From contig SAIX01000113.1 of NCBI GenBank assembly GCA_004028765.1, forward strand, positions 1 through 64,000: a DNA stretch of 64,000 nt, in the 5' to 3' direction. Source of the stretch: Chitinophagaceae bacterium. Lineage in GTDB: Bacteria > Bacteroidota > Bacteroidia > Chitinophagales > Chitinophagaceae. The translations under genes and the position numbers were made by a program. The notes beneath the pieces are model-generated. The model had not been told where the DNA came from, searched no databases, and saw only the letters and a program-made list of their open reading frames with translations. Below, piece after piece: positions 3,393 through 37,505 of this stretch (positions are counted from its first letter, which is position 1; each line of letters opens with the position of its first letter).

Positions 3393-3829
3393 ATTGGTTT
3401 GAGGGTTGATTGGTTTATTCGTTTATTTGTTTAAGAGTGGCAAAGTTAGTTTTATCATATTCACCATTGCCGATTCACCACTCACGGATTAGCGGATTAA
3501 TTACTCACCACTGACAACTCACAACTCACCTTTTCACCGCAAAGCCGCAAGGACACGAAGTTTCGCAGGGTGTGGTTAAAAAGGTTAAAAGTGTTAAAGA
3601 GGTTGGGCGTAATCCCCTATTCACCATTCACGGATTAGCGGATTATGGATTGGTTGATTAATTACTCACCACTGCCCACTCACCACTCACCAATTTCACG
3701 GCAAAGCCGCAAAGGTGCGAAGTTTCGCAGGGTTTTGTTAAAGGAGTTAAAATGGTTAAAAGGGGTTTAAAGTGTTCACCATGCTTTGTTCTACTGTTCC
3801 TTCGGCATTCGTTATTCAATGTTCGATTT
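3393..3829. repeat. Intergenic modular repeat array A (two units)
   Basis: This gene-less stretch holds a composite repeat. It starts with a TTGGTTT/TTTATT-rich lead (from about 3395), then a pyrimidine-rich ACTCACCACT segment, then a core beginning GCAAAGCCGCAA at 3539, followed by TTAAA boxes spaced nine bases apart (about 3575-3605). A second ACTCACC segment and core (from 3701) with its own TTAAA boxes follow, so the cores are 162 bases apart. The right end contains ATTCGTTATTCAATGTTCG-like words. The same architecture recurs at array B on the other side of the deacetylase gene. No ORF of credible composition spans it. Confidence 0.85.
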
Positions 3830-4465
3830 TTACTTCCTCTGTTCAATTTTCTCGAACCGGTATCCTTTGTTTGAAAAATATTCCAGCACTTTGGGCAATG
3901 CATAGCTCATGCGATCCCATGCTTTGGTGCTGTCGTGAAAAACAATGATAGAGCCGGGGCGGCTGTGGTATAACACATAACGCAGACAGGCATCCCCGGT
4001 TAGTGTGGTATCAAAATCACCACTGAGCACGTCCCACATGATAGTCTGGAGTGGGGAGTTGGGAGTGAGGAGTTGCATTTTTTTTTGCTGCGATCGCCTG
4101 ATACGGCCATAAGGCGGGCGGAAGAGATCAGAATGAATATTCTGTGCCGCCAGTTGGTAATCGTTTATATATGCCTCATCCGTTACCTTCCAGCCATTCA
4201 GGTGATTCTGGGTATGGTTGCCCACGGAATGACCATCCTGTAAAATACGCTGGTAAATTTCCGGGTACCTCTCCACATTTTTCCCGATACAGAAAAACGT
4301 GGCTTTGGCATTGTATTGCTGCAATGTATCGAGCACAAAAGGTGTTGCTGTCTCATGCGGACCATCATCAAAACTGAGATACAATACCTTTTCCTTTACC
4401 GGTATCCGCCAGGTAAGCCCCGGATAAAAAAGCCTCAGCCAGAAAGGGGTTTTTACGAGATACAT
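3830..4465 (-). CDS. Polysaccharide deacetylase, NodB homology domain
   Basis: Carbohydrate esterase family 4-like protein of 211 residues that should remove N- or O-acetyl groups from a glycan such as peptidoglycan or an exopolysaccharide. Visible motifs are SFDDGP (catalytic base D33, metal ligand D34), HSVGNHTQNH (H84, H88), RPPYG (116-120), WDVLSGD (144-150) and FHDS with H177. No clear signal peptide is present; the N-terminus is hydrophobic but short. Residues about 131-141 (LLTPNSPLQ) are encoded by a repeat-like GGAGTTGGGAGT tract (4046-4075, plus-strand reading), which appears to be an in-frame insertion before the WDV motif. The gene is an island between repeat arrays A and B. Family assignment is firm. 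Confidence 0.93.
   Translation of the reverse strand: MYLVKTPFWLRLFYPGLTWRIPVKEKVLYLSFDDGPHETATPFVLDTLQQYNAKATFFCIGKNVERYPEIYQRILQDGHSVGNHTQNHLNGWKVTDEAYINDYQLAAQNIHSDLFRPPYGRIRRSQQKKMQLLTPNSPLQTIMWDVLSGDFDTTLTGDACLRYVLYHSRPGSIIVFHDSTKAWDRMSYALPKVLEYFSNKGYRFEKIEQRK
4041..4079. repeat. GGAGTTGGGAGT repeat inside the deacetylase CDS
   Basis: A tract resembling GATAGTCTGGAGT followed by GGGAGTTGGGAGTGAGGAGTT lies in frame within the deacetylase gene. A close relative, differing at about seven of 40 positions, lies directly at the stop codon of the ferredoxin-reductase-like gene (37466-37505). Repeats of this composition are otherwise intergenic here. Confidence 0.7.
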
Positions 4466-4898
4466 AAAGTAAAGATATGATTCGTCAGGTGGATTGGGTT
4501 ACTGGTTTATTGGTTTGATTGTTTACTGGTTTAGTAGTGCTGAAGTTGATTTGATCCTGTTAACGATTGACGGATTACGGATTAGCGGATAAATTACTCA
4601 CCACTGACAGCTCACCATTCACGAATTTCTCGCAAAGCCGCAAAGAACGCGAAGTTTCGCAGGGTATGGTTAAAGGAGTTAAAATGGTTAAAAGTGTTAA
4701 AGAGGTTGGGTGTAATTCACCTTTCACGGATTAGGGGATTACGGATTAGCGGATTCATTACTCACCGCTGCCCATTCACCACTCACCAATTTCATGGCAA
4801 AGCCGCAAAGGCATGAAGTTTCGCGAAGTATGTTTAAAAGTGGGCTTCATCTGTTCCTTGCTCTTCTATACTATTGTTCCTTCATCCTTCGACATTCC
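4466..4898. repeat. Intergenic modular repeat array B (two units)
   Basis: Gene-less stretch with the same module order as array A: a TTGGTTT-rich lead (about 4497-4535), a GGATTACGGATTAGCGG word, an ACTCACCACTGAC segment, the core GCAAAGCCGCAAAG from 4632, TTAAA boxes every nine bases (about 4670-4700), then a second ACTCACC segment and a core from 4797. The cores are 165 bases apart, against 162 in array A. The right end carries CCTTCGACATTCC and ATTCGATATTCAAT words and runs into the gltX promoter. The array therefore flanks the deacetylase gene on its upstream side. Confidence 0.85.
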
Positions 4899-4928
4899 TT
4901 GTCCGGTATTCGATATTCAATACTTTTG
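4899..4928 (+). promoter_or_regulatory. Bacteroidota-type promoter of gltX
   Basis: TTG at 4899-4901 and TACTTTTG at 4921-4928 are separated by 19 bases, matching the -33 and -7 (TAnnTTTG) elements of the Bacteroidota primary sigma factor. Only four bases separate the -7 element from the gltX ATG, so transcription should start at or next to the start codon. The -33 element lies in the right edge of repeat array B. Confidence 0.65.
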
Positions 4929-4932
4929 CAGC

Positions 4933-6462
4933 ATGAACCCAAAAGTACGTGTCCGTTTTGCGCCTTCTCCTACCGGTGGCTTACACCTGGGCGGGGTAAG
5001 AACGGTTCTTTTTAATTATCTGTTCGCCCGGAAATATGGTGGTGATTTTATCCTGCGTATTGAAGATACCGACCAGGGGCGGTTTGTTCCCGGCGCTGAA
5101 GAATACATTTTCAATACATTACAATGGTGCGGGCTCGAGCCTGATGAAAGCCCGGTGCATGGCGGACCGTTTGCACCATACCGCCAGAGTGAACGCAAAG
5201 CTTTATACAGGCAGTACGCCGAGCAACTTGTACAATCCGGCAATGCTTATTATGCATTCGACACTCCTGATGAACTCGAGAAAATGCGTGCCGATTTTAA
5301 AACGGCTGAAAACCCATCCCCGCAGTACAATCATTTTATCCGCAGCAGGATGCGGAATTCACTGACGCTGGGAAAAGAAGAAACAGGTAAACTACTTGCT
5401 GCCGGCACCCCGCATGTGATCCGCATCAAAATGCCCGAAAATGAAACGGTAAGTTTTACGGATATGATCCGGGGCGAAGTTTCTTTTCAGACTTCACAGG
5501 TGGACGATAAAGTTTTATTGAAAGCCGATGGAATGCCTACCTATCACCTGGCTGTAGTGGTGGATGACTATCTGATGAAGATCAGTCATGCTTTTCGCGG
5601 CGAAGAATGGTTGCCCTCAGCACCCGTACATCTTTTGGTGTGGAAATATCTTGGATGGGAAAGCCAGATGCCGCAATGGGCGCATCTTCCATTGATATTA
5701 AAGCCGGATGGAAACGGAAAACTAAGCAAACGCGATGGTGACAGGCTTGGGTTTCCGGTATTTGCGATGGACTGGACCGATCCAAAAACCAATGAAACCA
5801 CAATCGGCTTCCGGGAAAGGGGATTTTTACCGGAAGCTTTTGTGAACCTTCTCGCGATGCTCGGCTGGAACGATGGCAGCGATAATGAAATTTTTACGAT
5901 CGATGAACTGATCGAAAAATTTTCGATGGACCGTGTGCACAAAGGAGGCGCCAAGTTTGATTACGAAAAAGCCAAATGGTTCAATCACGAATGGATAAAA
6001 AAATCAGAGGCCAGGTCCCTGGAGGCTGGTGTAAAAAATGAATTTGAGAAAAAAGGAATTGCAGTTACGGATGATGGGCTGCTTTCGAAAGTAATTACTT
6101 TGGTAAAAGACCGCTGTACTTTATTACCTGATTTTGTACAGCAGGGTTCTTTCTTTTTTCAATCGCCTGAAACATTTGATACCGGCGCCATCAAACCCAA
6201 ATGGGATGATAAGAAAAATCTTTTCTTTACTGAACTGATCCGGGCTTATGAATTAAGCACTTTATGGGAATCCCATGATCTCGAAAAAGAATTCAAAGAG
6301 CTGGCTGCAGCCAACCAGCTGAAACCCGGAGACCTGATGTTACCATTCCGCATCATGTTGGTGGGAGGTAAATTTGGCCCGGGTGTATTCGATATTGCGG
6401 CCCTGATCGGCAAAGAAGCAACCATACAGCGGATACAGCATACCCTTTCTTTATTATCGTAA
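4933..6462 (+). CDS. gltX: Glutamate--tRNA ligase
   Basis: Class I aminoacyl-tRNA synthetase charging tRNA-Glu (509 residues). The N-terminus reads VRVRFAPSPTGGLHLGGVR, containing the HIGH-equivalent; a KMSKS-equivalent KLSKRDG lies near residue 262. The anticodon-binding domain follows. The open frame extends upstream to 4813, but those 40 codons are translated repeat array B, and the family begins at MNPKVRVRF, so ATG 4933 is the start. The exact -7 element four bases upstream supports this. A strong terminator follows. Full length and no anomalies. Confidence 0.97.
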   Translation: MNPKVRVRFAPSPTGGLHLGGVRTVLFNYLFARKYGGDFILRIEDTDQGRFVPGAEEYIFNTLQWCGLEPDESPVHGGPFAPYRQSERKALYRQYAEQLVQSGNAYYAFDTPDELEKMRADFKTAENPSPQYNHFIRSRMRNSLTLGKEETGKLLAAGTPHVIRIKMPENETVSFTDMIRGEVSFQTSQVDDKVLLKADGMPTYHLAVVVDDYLMKISHAFRGEEWLPSAPVHLLVWKYLGWESQMPQWAHLPLILKPDGNGKLSKRDGDRLGFPVFAMDWTDPKTNETTIGFRERGFLPEAFVNLLAMLGWNDGSDNEIFTIDELIEKFSMDRVHKGGAKFDYEKAKWFNHEWIKKSEARSLEAGVKNEFEKKGIAVTDDGLLSKVITLVKDRCTLLPDFVQQGSFFFQSPETFDTGAIKPKWDDKKNLFFTELIRAYELSTLWESHDLEKEFKELAAANQLKPGDLMLPFRIMLVGGKFGPGVFDIAALIGKEATIQRIQHTLSLLS

Positions 6463-12479: not shown

Positions 12480-14603
12480 TTAGTGAAACAGCATCGAAGC
12501 AGGTACTTCCTGTTTGGCCTGGCCTACCGGCTGGTAGCTGAATAACAAGTTATTACTGCCACCGCTGTCGAAGTAACGGATCCGGACCATGTGGTACCCT
12601 TTTTCAAGAAATACTTTTCCTTCCTTTTCATCAAACCCATGGTTGCCATCGTTGTTCACGATTTCCTTTCCATCAATTTCGAGTACGCTTCCATCATCAC
12701 TGCTGATAAAAAAAGTATACCCCATTGTTTTGTCGGCACGAATATATCCTTCAAACACGAGGCCGAATTTATCCTTGCGTTGTTTTTCTGTTAAGGAAAC
12801 GTTGGCCGTAATTCCCTTTTTAACGGGGGCCTGATCTTTGAATACGCCCATGTGCATATTTTCTGCTTCATAGTAATTGTAACGGATACCTGGCTCAGGG
12901 TTATTTACGTTTACAGCTTTCTGCATTGTTAATCCCATTGTTTTAGCCACCGCCGTATCACTGGGCAGGTATACATTCCCTTTGGTAGCCCATGCTTCGA
13001 TGATGGCATCCCCTTTCACGGTTACGGGGGCTGAATATTTTTGCGGGGCTGCCCCATTCAAACTATAAAATATATCTGCCCCTGTTACCGCATTATTCAC
13101 CGTAATGGTTGCGCCCGACATATTTTCCGCATATGCCACATCAATCATCGGCTTACGCAGAAATGCGCCATAGTCCGCAATTTTTACAACATAGGCATAA
13201 GGGCTTTTGATTTTATTGGGATCATATTCGGGAAGATCAATCACTAAGTTGTTGCCTTGCTGGTGTGCCGAAAGCTTTTCGCCTGTTGCGAGAAAACGGA
13301 TATCGCCGAAAGTTTTTGCAGAAACGATCTCCTTTAATACCAGTTTTCTGCCGGATGGATATTTCGGGAAAATCGCATACAGCGAATTCGTGGAAGGGTT
13401 GTAGGTATAAAACACTTCTTTTACCGCATAACCCGGCGATGGATCCACGGTTAATTTCATCATGATGTCTTCCCCCTTTTTTGCTTTGTAATCGCGCTTA
13501 CCTGTACTCCATTGCGAAACCTGTTTCCATCTCGTGGTGTTATAAATCGCTTCGCCATTCACTTTCAGCCAGTCGCCCATCTGCAGCAAACGTTCCTGCA
13601 TAATGGGCGGGATTTTACCATGTTCATCCGGGCCGATGTCGAGCAGAAAATTTCCGCCACGGCTCACTTTATCCAGCAAATGGTAAATCAACGACTGTGT
13701 GGAATTATAATCCCAGGCATCTTCTTCGCGATTGTATCCGTAAGAATATCCCATGCCGCGGCTCTCTTCCCATACATGGTTTTCAAAATCCAGTTCGGGC
13801 TGGTATTCGGGCGTATATACGCCGCCATGTTTGAAACGGATACCACTTCCCCAACGATCGTAGGTTACCACTTTATCTTTTACAGGGCTTTCATTGTATA
13901 ACCATGACAAAAACTCTTTCGACTGCCAGGTATTTTCGCTTTCATCCCAATCGCCATCGGTCCAGAATACATCCGGCTGGTACGTATTGATGAGTTCTTT
14001 CATCTGCGGCCACATATGTTCGGCTGCATACCGCTTATGGTCTGTTTTCCACAAAGGGTTGAACCATTCGTAAAGCGAATAATACATGCCGGCCCTTACC
14101 GAAGTTTTGCGAACCGCCTTAAAGAGATCGCCCAGCAGGTCGCGGTGAGGGCCCGCATCCATTGCATTCCAGGGAAAGCCCCAGGTTTTATTGGCATCTT
14201 TACTGGGCCACAATGCAAACCCATCATGGTGTTTGGAAGTAAGCACAATATATTTTGCCCCCGATTTTTCAAATACTTTCGCCCACTCATCGGGTTGAAA
14301 CAATTCCGCTTTAAACTGATCGGCAAGCTGGTAATAAGTCTGGTTGCCAAACTTTGCAGCATGGTAAGCTTTTTTGGCACTGTCTCCATTCTGCAATCCA
14401 TTCTGGTACCATTCTGCATAACCGCCCTTGGTGGTATAAGCGGGTACTGCATACACACCCCAGTGAATAAAGATGCCGAATTTCCCATCGGTAAACCAGG
14501 AAGGAACGGGGCGCTTGTCGAGCGATTCCCAGGAAGGCTGATAGTTCTGGGCCTGAACAGATACCGTAAAACCGGCCATTGCAATCAATATGTATTTTTT
14601 CAT
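12480..14603 (-). CDS. Alpha-L-fucosidase, GH29, with C-terminal PA14 domain
   Basis: Exported glycoside hydrolase of 707 residues that should release alpha-L-fucose from glycans. Signal peptide about residues 1-18 (SVQAQN). The GH29 barrel covers about 25-380, with FGIFIHWGVY, SKHHDGFALW (125-131) and the nucleophile D216 in FWTDGDWD. A beta-sandwich follows, then a chitobiase-like linker near 500-560 (FYSLNGAAP) and a PA14-like domain over the last 130 residues (FFISSDDGSVLEIDG), probably for carbohydrate binding. GH29 plus PA14 is a less common layout. The downstream partner is the phosphatase-superfamily gene. Confidence 0.92.
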   Translation of the reverse strand: MKKYILIAMAGFTVSVQAQNYQPSWESLDKRPVPSWFTDGKFGIFIHWGVYAVPAYTTKGGYAEWYQNGLQNGDSAKKAYHAAKFGNQTYYQLADQFKAELFQPDEWAKVFEKSGAKYIVLTSKHHDGFALWPSKDANKTWGFPWNAMDAGPHRDLLGDLFKAVRKTSVRAGMYYSLYEWFNPLWKTDHKRYAAEHMWPQMKELINTYQPDVFWTDGDWDESENTWQSKEFLSWLYNESPVKDKVVTYDRWGSGIRFKHGGVYTPEYQPELDFENHVWEESRGMGYSYGYNREEDAWDYNSTQSLIYHLLDKVSRGGNFLLDIGPDEHGKIPPIMQERLLQMGDWLKVNGEAIYNTTRWKQVSQWSTGKRDYKAKKGEDIMMKLTVDPSPGYAVKEVFYTYNPSTNSLYAIFPKYPSGRKLVLKEIVSAKTFGDIRFLATGEKLSAHQQGNNLVIDLPEYDPNKIKSPYAYVVKIADYGAFLRKPMIDVAYAENMSGATITVNNAVTGADIFYSLNGAAPQKYSAPVTVKGDAIIEAWATKGNVYLPSDTAVAKTMGLTMQKAVNVNNPEPGIRYNYYEAENMHMGVFKDQAPVKKGITANVSLTEKQRKDKFGLVFEGYIRADKTMGYTFFISSDDGSVLEIDGKEIVNNDGNHGFDEKEGKVFLEKGYHMVRIRYFDSGGSNNLLFSYQPVGQAKQEVPASMLFH

Positions 14604-36741: not shown

Positions 36742-37470
36742 ATGTTAGAACCCTGGCGTACTGGTAAAGTGATCAGAATTGAAGATGCAACTGCCCAAAC
36801 CCGTCGTTTCTGGATACAGGTTCCGGAACTGGAATCCTTCGATTTCAAAGCCGGACAGTTCGTAACCCTCGATCTTCCCATCCACGAACAGAAAAACAAA
36901 CGCTGGAGAAGTTATTCCATCGCGTCAGCACCTGATGGCACCAATATTTTTGAACTGGTGATCGTATTACTCGAAGGTGGCCTTGGCACCACGTATCTTT
37001 TTAACGAAGTAAGCGTTGGCAGTGAATTGCTGCTGCGCGGCCCGCAGGGTAAATTCGTTTTACCCGAGCCTGTTACCGAAGATGTTTACTTTATCTGTAC
37101 CGGTACCGGCATCGCACCATTCCGTGCGATGGTGCATAATCTTCACAAACAAAAACTGCCGCACCAGAACCTGCACCTCATTTTTGGCTGCCGTAAATTT
37201 TCGGACGGCCTTTACGTAGATGAACTAAAACAACTTGAAAAAGATGAGCCTGGTTTTTTCTTCCATCCTTGCTATTCCCGCGAGGAATCGGTACCGGAAG
37301 GTGCCTATAAAGGATATGTGCACCAGGTATATGAATCATTAACGCAAAACGGTAAAATACCTGCCCGTTTCTATCTCTGCGGCTGGAAGAATATGATCGA
37401 TGAAGCCAAGCAACGCATCCAGGCAATGGGGTATGACAAGAAGGCGATACACCTGGAGTTGTATGGATAG
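36742..37470 (+). CDS. FAD-dependent ferredoxin/flavodoxin-NADP reductase-like protein
   Basis: A 242-residue reductase of the FNR superfamily. The FAD site is WRSYSIASAP, and the NAD(P) site is CTGTGIAPFRAM followed by FGCRKFSDGLYVDE and the closing YLCGWKNMIDEAK. The open frame starts at 36658 inside the preceding terminator, so ATG 36742 (MLEPWRTGKV) was chosen, which is where family similarity begins. It has no fused 2Fe-2S domain and would need an external electron partner. A repeat tract begins at its stop codon. Confidence 0.88.
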   Translation: MLEPWRTGKVIRIEDATAQTRRFWIQVPELESFDFKAGQFVTLDLPIHEQKNKRWRSYSIASAPDGTNIFELVIVLLEGGLGTTYLFNEVSVGSELLLRGPQGKFVLPEPVTEDVYFICTGTGIAPFRAMVHNLHKQKLPHQNLHLIFGCRKFSDGLYVDELKQLEKDEPGFFFHPCYSREESVPEGAYKGYVHQVYESLTQNGKIPARFYLCGWKNMIDEAKQRIQAMGYDKKAIHLELYG

Positions 37471-37505
37471 TCTGGAGTTAGGAATTGGGAGTTAGGAGTT
37501 GAGAT
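37466..37505. repeat. GGAGTTAGGAGTT repeat at the FNR-like gene end
   Basis: Begins GATAGTCTGGAGTT at the stop codon and continues AGGAATTGGGAGTTAGGAGTT. It closely resembles the tract inside the deacetylase gene at 4041-4079. Confidence 0.65.

Follow-up and report, generated by a model that had tools for sequence, protein, structure and literature searches.

An in-frame array of a dispersed heptameric repeat in a loop of a NodB-type deacetylase gene from a Chitinophagaceae bacterium

Introduction

Repeats built of seven-nucleotide units have been described in several bacterial lineages. The closest described systems are the heptameric repeats of Xanthomonas (GGGAATC) and Nostoc (GGGGAYT), which, in the cited sections of their report, are dispersed, mostly intergenic, and arranged singly or as inverted pairs (PMC4692102). 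The same sections put the share of heptamers that at least partly overlap an open reading frame (ORF) at 11% in Xcc and 7% in Xac, and in Nostoc they count 68% as intergenic. The TAACTGA heptamers of Beggiatoaceae, Cyanobacteria, and some Bacteroidetes are described, in the part of the source used here, as patchy, with strain-specific paths and few copies in ORFs (PMC4679880). Repeats of another kind, the Rickettsia palindromic elements, are about 150 bp long and lie in frame in unrelated genes, with a conserved peptide, according to the cited part of PMC10969869. The route by which dispersed heptamers spread is unsettled in the cited portions of PMC4692102 and PMC4679880.

Here we describe a heptad tract inside a protein-coding gene of a Chitinophagaceae bacterium (assembly GCA_004028765.1). 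The gene lies in a stretch of 64,000 nucleotides, positions 1 to 64,000 of contig SAIX01000113.1, that we refer to as the window. By its arrangement, the tract is a dispersed heptameric repeat. Like the Xanthomonas and Nostoc families, as far as the cited sections of PMC4692102 describe them, the family consists of 7-nt units on both strands that are dispersed and mainly intergenic, with a minority in genes; it differs in that its core has GG runs only, its host belongs to the Bacteroidota, and one coding site carries differing motifs across lineages. The published families have quadruplex-forming G-runs of at least three and prefer four units; in the arrays described here GGGG occurs only where the spacer happens to be GG. 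With the TAACTGA heptamers the family shares an organization in arrays, a patchy distribution, and few copies inside ORFs, but the motif is another one, and the main species in the cited part of PMC4679880 carries its heptamers mostly just upstream of start codons. The Rickettsia elements, as presented in the cited part of PMC10969869, resemble it in being repeats that sit in frame in unrelated genes. They differ in their length of about 150 bp and their conserved peptide, against a one-armed tract of about 35 nt; the tract is therefore not an element of the Rickettsia type by size or symmetry, and is similar in effect. Among the matches listed from the open-access literature, no title dealt with heptads of Sediminibacterium or with heptads within NodB or gltX genes.

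Results

The host gene (3830..4465, minus strand) encodes a CE4/NodB-type polysaccharide deacetylase of 211 residues, as judged from its ORF, a profile match to PF01522 (E 1.5e-28), and a fold whose best PDB match is the CE4 peptidoglycan deacetylase fold of 4l1g_A (TM 0.82). The CE4/NodB motif set FDDGP, HxxGNH, RPPYG, W, D, and H is present. Residues F32 D33 D34 G35 P36, H79, and G82 N83 H84 are invariant over 46 homologues, as are R116 P117 P118 Y119 G120, W144, D150, H177, and D178. Fold and motif residues are those of the CE4/NodB deacetylases 4l1g and 2c1g, from which the protein differs in a longer, repeat-derived helix-to-strand loop.

The tract is a heptad array at 4041..4075, which on the plus strand reads ATAGTCT, GGAGTGG, GGAGTTG, GGAGTGA, GGAGTTG, the last four units (4048-4075) being GGAGTNN heptads. 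The two-base spacers vary from unit to unit (CT, GG, TG, GA, TG). On the coding strand the units are CAACTCC, TCACTCC, CAACTCC, CCACTCC, and AGACTAT; the four heptads are read as QLLTPNSPLQ, residues 131-140, and AGACTAT codes the T after Q140 and part of an I. The ORF is intact across the tract. A first-pass annotation of the window had claimed an intergenic-type repeat lying in frame in the deacetylase, and this stands, with the frame and the catalytic motifs both preserved; its placement at residues of about 131-141, read as LLTPNSPLQ, was right as to the region and is corrected here to the exact span. It had also set the tract next to a catalytic motif, which is true in sequence. An AlphaFold2 model built from 46 sequences (mean pLDDT 96, and 88 over residues 131-140) puts the tract at the end of a helix (124-133) and in the loop (134-139) before a strand (140-142), a position that would explain why it is tolerated. 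Going by the fold type, this loop would lie on the barrel face opposite the active site, and the protein would tolerate the tract because the loop is away from that site. The deacetylase is expected to be active, and any function of the tract itself is expected to be slight or absent.

A second array of the same family (37467..37501, plus strand) overlaps the stop codon of an FNR-like gene and runs into intergenic space, with units ATAGTCT, GGAGTTA, GGAATTG, GGAGTTA, GGAGTTG. TRF reports periods 7 and 14 at both tracts, 32 of 36 positions are identical between 4040-4075 and 37466-37501, and GATAGTCTGGAGT occurs exactly twice in the window. The near-copy that had been noticed at 37466-37505 is thus present, but other arrays match the tract as well. 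A blastn search with the NodB tract (E up to 1e-6, about 0.86 Mb of the genome, overlaps counted) matched the array in a pseudouridine synthase gene over 37 nt at 89% and an array at L244 over 53 nt at 83%, and the 37-kb tract was absent from the matches at that cutoff in that sample. We therefore rejected the 37-kb tract as a special partner of the NodB tract, the more so as the degenerate unit AGTCT stands before 7 of 45 arrays. The L244 array (14368-14419) lies close upstream of an ATG and has the same GACTATC end as both window arrays; this end is perhaps a terminal unit of the family.

The tract is a member of a repeat family, and chance resemblance was rejected. The 19-mer GGAGTNNGGARTNNGGAGT, with at most one mismatch, has 121 matches in the 3.7-Mb genome (65 forward, 56 reverse) and its reversed control has 0. 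Synonymous-codon shuffling of the deacetylase gene attained the observed lag-7 score in 0 of 1000 trials. A loose 12-mer with 2 mismatches was not above chance in the window (10 matches against 11.8 expected). The family has a core of GGAGT plus two variable bases and is dispersed, degenerate, and present on both strands, mostly between genes, in arrays that stand singly or as inverted pairs. Two contigs (C118, L077:5-100, and C121, L078:1-96) begin with 14 perfect GGAGTTA units, from which it seems that the assembly breaks at long arrays. The heptad pattern had 0 matches in 24 other genomes of the genus, a set outside which lie G152 and G219, the genomes of L170 and L171, which are the closest by NodB. 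It occurs in 4 of 15 genomes from other families of the order, with 100 matches in G035, 7 in G033, 3 in G032 (against 4 for the reversed control), and 2 in G026. With 100 matches in a genome of another family and none in the 24 of the same genus, the repeat family is patchy.

Heptad periodicity is concentrated outside genes. In the window and 20 further stretches we counted 54 lag-7 tracts in non-coding or edge sequence (50.8 kb) versus 5 in coding sequence (409 kb), with tracts scoring at least 16/21, coding sequence defined as ORFs of at least 120 codons, and tracts of 1-3-nt units dropped. The five coding tracts are the NodB tract, two arms in LpxB, and two tracts near ORF starts that may not be truly coding. 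Lag 8 gave 16 non-coding or edge tracts and 0 coding ones, and no other lag between 4 and 13 exceeded 7 tracts in either class. A second sample, with coding sequence defined in the same way and the same kinds of tract dropped, gave 9 non-coding lag-7 tracts (25.4 kb) versus 1 coding tract (226 kb), which lies near an ORF start. Neither sample is random: the first is made up of contigs known from pattern matches, and its rates may be high; the second takes odd-numbered contigs with several of the known arrays left out, and its rates may be low. The stretches from G041, G324, and G326 mostly surround earlier pattern matches, and no rates were drawn from them. Spacer use also differs between the two settings, TA filling 48 of 109 spacers in intergenic arrays versus 1 of 18 in coding arrays (Fisher p 0.0013), a comparison that excluded the C102 array and both contig starts made of perfect GGAGTTA units. 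Whichever strand is read, a TA spacer makes a stop codon in one register out of three.

Among the matches listed, which were 100 of the 121 and a few more, we examined 41 array places (40 scanned for at least three units, plus the one on C102), and 5 of these, NodB included, keep an open frame within a gene or a fused frame. This share is near the ORF-overlap share published for the Xanthomonas heptamers, as given in the cited sections of PMC4692102. The amidohydrolase gene on C101 carries QLQTPNSKLQTS in frame with a lag-7 score of 21/21, against at most 14 in 15 homologues. On C102, LpxB (L248:11665-12861) holds an in-frame, two-armed array of about 100 nt in which GGAGT and ATTCACC heptads are mixed, and the protein is about 20 residues longer than the solved LpxB 5w8s. 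The pseudouridine synthase on C109 has its array in frame in a linker. On C107 (L055:906-1907), a single open frame spans DUF6787, a two-armed heptad array, and PurN; this may reflect a fusion, or else two genes whose spacer is open by chance. Nine more arms stand in open frames of at least 80 codons, but at most 47 nt from the frame end, and were not counted among the five. The encoded peptides are alike (QLLTPNSPLQ, QLQTPNSKLQ, KLLTPNSAV, KLQTPNSLLQ) because the heptad itself dictates them. A view of the NodB tract as an event without precedent is not supported, given these four further cases and the intragenic heptamers and in-frame elements already published in the cited parts of PMC4692102 and PMC10969869.

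The deacetylase gene is bracketed by two composite intergenic blocks. The one downstream of the gene (3393..3840) is made of ACTCACC heptads, ATTGGTTT octads, and CGCAAAG and GGTTAAAA units; the other, in the gap between the deacetylase and gltX (4486..4925), has the same unit order and is 78% identical over 347 nt. Units resembling CGCAAAGCCGCAAAG, GGTTAAAA, and TTCGNNATTC also occur in both, in the same order. The left block matches 13 sampled sequences of this genome, the window included.

The length of the NodB loop is unexceptional. Measured from PPYG to MW, it has 22 residues in the window versus 20 in L170 and L171, the closest relatives found (74% identical). Thirty other loops from the genus range from 15 to 30 residues, 22 of them being 20 or 21 residues long, and 51 of 67 loops parsed from 80 named relatives have 17-20. 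All 114 loops parsed from 138 loci span 12-43 residues (the other 24 loci gave no parsed loop and were dropped from length counts), and 110 of the 114 are without a heptad score. Against the 15-residue loops of L008, L012, L177, and L180, the gain of the window loop would be 7 residues. The loop had been thought longer than in homologues, and these lengths give no support for a notable difference. As to whether relatives share the loop, its length is near-equal, while its composition is shared by none of them, a different heptad-like tract in L080 excepted. With no relative found above 74% identity, the ancestral site cannot be reconstructed at the DNA level, and it is uncertain how large the change was and which way it went. 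Four heptads amount to 28 nt, a length that would shift the frame, so either the tract took the place of some of the loop or compensating changes came after it. A gain of two residues and a length that is no multiple of three lend no support to whole heptads having been cleanly inserted. L171 reads E-T-I-M-W where the window protein reads Q-T-I-M-W, so T-I at the tract edge is probably native, and N-P-x-L is present in the loops of L170, L171, and L080. Two related genomes (L003:1501-2148 and L081:2501-3145) have a 30-residue loop with PPYPFSPxG and without heptad character.

In three other lineages, one of them weakly supported, this NodB loop carries heptads of a different motif, and the site is not unique. 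L080 (loop of 20 residues) has an AACYCGC lag-7 tract, L084 (43 residues) has GGAAGCY followed by ACTCACC, and L122 (Pedobacter suwonensis, 33 residues) has a two-armed AAGTCYN array. Among 138 NodB ORFs, with the loop found in 123, there are 5 lag-7 tracts in the loop (4 genes) and 3 elsewhere, against 1 in the loop and 10 elsewhere for lags 4-6 and 8-13 pooled; the threshold here and for gltX was at least 15/21, with tracts of 1-3-nt units dropped. Lag 14, which gives 5 tracts in the loop and 3 elsewhere (for gltX, 4 in the segment described below and 2 elsewhere), was taken as a harmonic of 7. In one case the local motif belongs to a family abundant in its own genome: AAGTCYN has 50 matches in the genome of L122, of which the site accounts for 4, and no more than 3 in any of nine others. 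Its reversed control has 108 matches in G329, which are explained by the GTTNCAG family of that genome. For L080 the corresponding case is weak, since its genome has only 4 matches to AACCCGC, of which two come from the locus, and synonymous shuffling gives weak support, attaining the observed lag-7 score in 53 of 1000 trials. The degenerate AACYCNN has 39 matches versus 11 for its reversed control in the L080 genome, 14 versus 20 in that of L084, 1 versus 2 in G010, and 166 versus 4 in G000, where it matches NNACTCC units. Strict GGAAGCT has 4 matches in the genome of L084, all in its own NodB and adjoining gltX genes; for ACTCACC the reversed control is invalid, the reversed pattern being nearly the same repeat. 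The NodB gene of L175 scores 14/21, below threshold, with 0 of 1000 synonymous shuffles as high. When the heptad trait is placed on a tree built from 115 NodB proteins minus the loop, four changes are required. This tree is weak, though, and its strongly supported branches are compatible with a single origin.

A second coding site is in gltX, which adjoins the deacetylase gene in the window (4933..6462, plus strand, with an inferred start). The codons after HEWIK show no clear heptads by eye in the window's gltX and are the site of lag-7 tracts in several relatives. In 6 of 26 gltX ORFs a lag-7 tract falls in the 60 nt that follow HEWIK; 4 tracts lie elsewhere, and lags 4-6 and 8-13 give 0 tracts in this segment. 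The gltX gene next to NodB in L084 (L084:109-145) has in-frame GGAAGYY heptads with its length unchanged. Motifs at the site differ between relatives, and 16 of 17 have a HEW-to-VKER span of 43 residues. The L112 motif GTTNCAG has 232 matches in its own genome, where it is among the commonest non-coding heptads of the first-20-contig stretches, and at most 4 in each of nine others. The L091 motif TTTGARG was rejected as an own-genome family, with 5 matches there, two of them at gltX, and 8 in another genome. Thus at two recurrent sites (NodB in L122, gltX in L112) the motif is the abundant family of its own genome, and at L091 gltX it is not. Synonymous shuffling, which covered only the 9 of 23 gltX genes with a segment score of at least 13, attained the observed score in 0 of 500 trials for L084 and L112, 1 for L090, 3 for L091, 6 for L080 and for L094, 18 for L191, 24 for L097, and 35 for L111.

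Two periplasmic binding proteins, orthologues from G041 and G324 (L221:10941-11915, L226:5438-6238), whose genes came from stretches placed near earlier pattern matches, carry different heptads at the same place and align at 58% identity with 0 gaps over 258 residues. The gltX and binding protein sequences point to rewriting without a change of length, as far as an amphipathic protein pattern, which confounds this comparison, allows. In-frame lag-7 tracts are also present in AnmK (L225:9869-10996) and a glutamine amidotransferase (L223:10677-11270) of G324.

Discussion

We think it likely that the NodB tract is an array of a lineage-specific, dispersed, degenerate heptad family that arrived by slippage or recombination in a tolerant loop. 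Slippage, or a short recombination with dispersed arrays, would have brought the repeat to the loop between helix and strand, native near-heptad codons of the N-P-x-L type probably having seeded it. Part of the loop would have been replaced, leaving it longer by about two residues. Selection would remove arrays with TA spacers in the stop-making register, as well as those that shift the frame.

An alternative, which we consider unlikely, is that arrays at these coding sites are ancestral and that the dispersed heptads of each lineage rewrite their motif by gene conversion with length kept. It draws on the gltX genes, 6 of 26 of which have a lag-7 tract in one shared stretch of 60 nt (4 tracts lie elsewhere) where lags 4-6 and 8-13 give none, on the constancy of the 43-residue HEW-VKER span in 16 of 17 despite differing motifs, on the match between the L112 motif and its own genome's family, and on the binding proteins, which align without gaps although their heptads differ at a shared position. 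Against this, the heptad-bearing NodB loops have lengths of 22, 20, 43, and 33 residues and need four changes on the 115-row tree, weak as it is, and the L091 motif is not its genome's family. The gltX signal itself may be partly protein-made, since a hydrophobic residue every 3-4 positions favours a 7-residue period, and some shuffles of L111, L097, and L191 score as high. We also regard it as improbable that the NodB tract came from a small mobile element, palindromic and RPE- or MITE-like, that inserts into genes. Two-armed arrays do fold as hairpins (z -6.1 for C107, -3.5 for the L122 loop, -2.1 for LpxB), and the extra residues of LpxB relative to 5w8s would fit an insertion; the NodB tract, however, is one-armed, its folding is matched by 28 of 200 shuffles (z -1.1), and 28 or 35 nt is no multiple of three. 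With folding not beyond chance, a hairpin role for this tract is unsupported.

The same lack of structure beyond chance bears on the suggestion that the tract is functional or phase-variable and regulates the gene through slippage or nucleic-acid structure, to which we give little credence. Gain or loss of one 7-nt unit would indeed shift the frame, but phase-variable contingency repeats are recognized by perfect units, those of the NodB tract are imperfect and would slip slowly, and 110 of 114 loops do without a heptad score altogether. Least credible of all is that the NodB loop is an ordinary one whose likeness to the repeat is accidental. Loop length is variable and N-P-x-L does occur in some relatives; four exact GGAGT cores spaced by 7, the empty reversed control across 3.7 Mb, and the failure of all 1000 shuffles are hard to reconcile with it. 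We therefore retain arrival of a dispersed heptad array in a tolerant loop as the preferred reading.

What is possibly new here is the recurrence of heptads at the same coding sites with differing motifs and, in gltX, without change of length. A broader proposal, which we hold tentatively and with considerable doubt, is that in Chitinophagaceae and their kin the NodB loop, gltX after HEWIK, and the binding protein are repeatedly rewritten into the heptad dialect of each genome by a homogenising process, with gltX and binding protein lengths kept and the motifs evolving in concert. Orthologous sites with differing motifs, two of which tested as the genome's own, offer alignable before-and-after material with the reading frame as a ruler, and could tell insertion, slippage, and conversion apart. 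The in-frame heptads of the NodB loop are in this respect a small natural test of how repeats enter proteins. A repeat can be the source of peptides such as TPNS, KLEVGSW, and SPLTTHHSP in proteins of this kind, which are thus not necessarily functional motifs.
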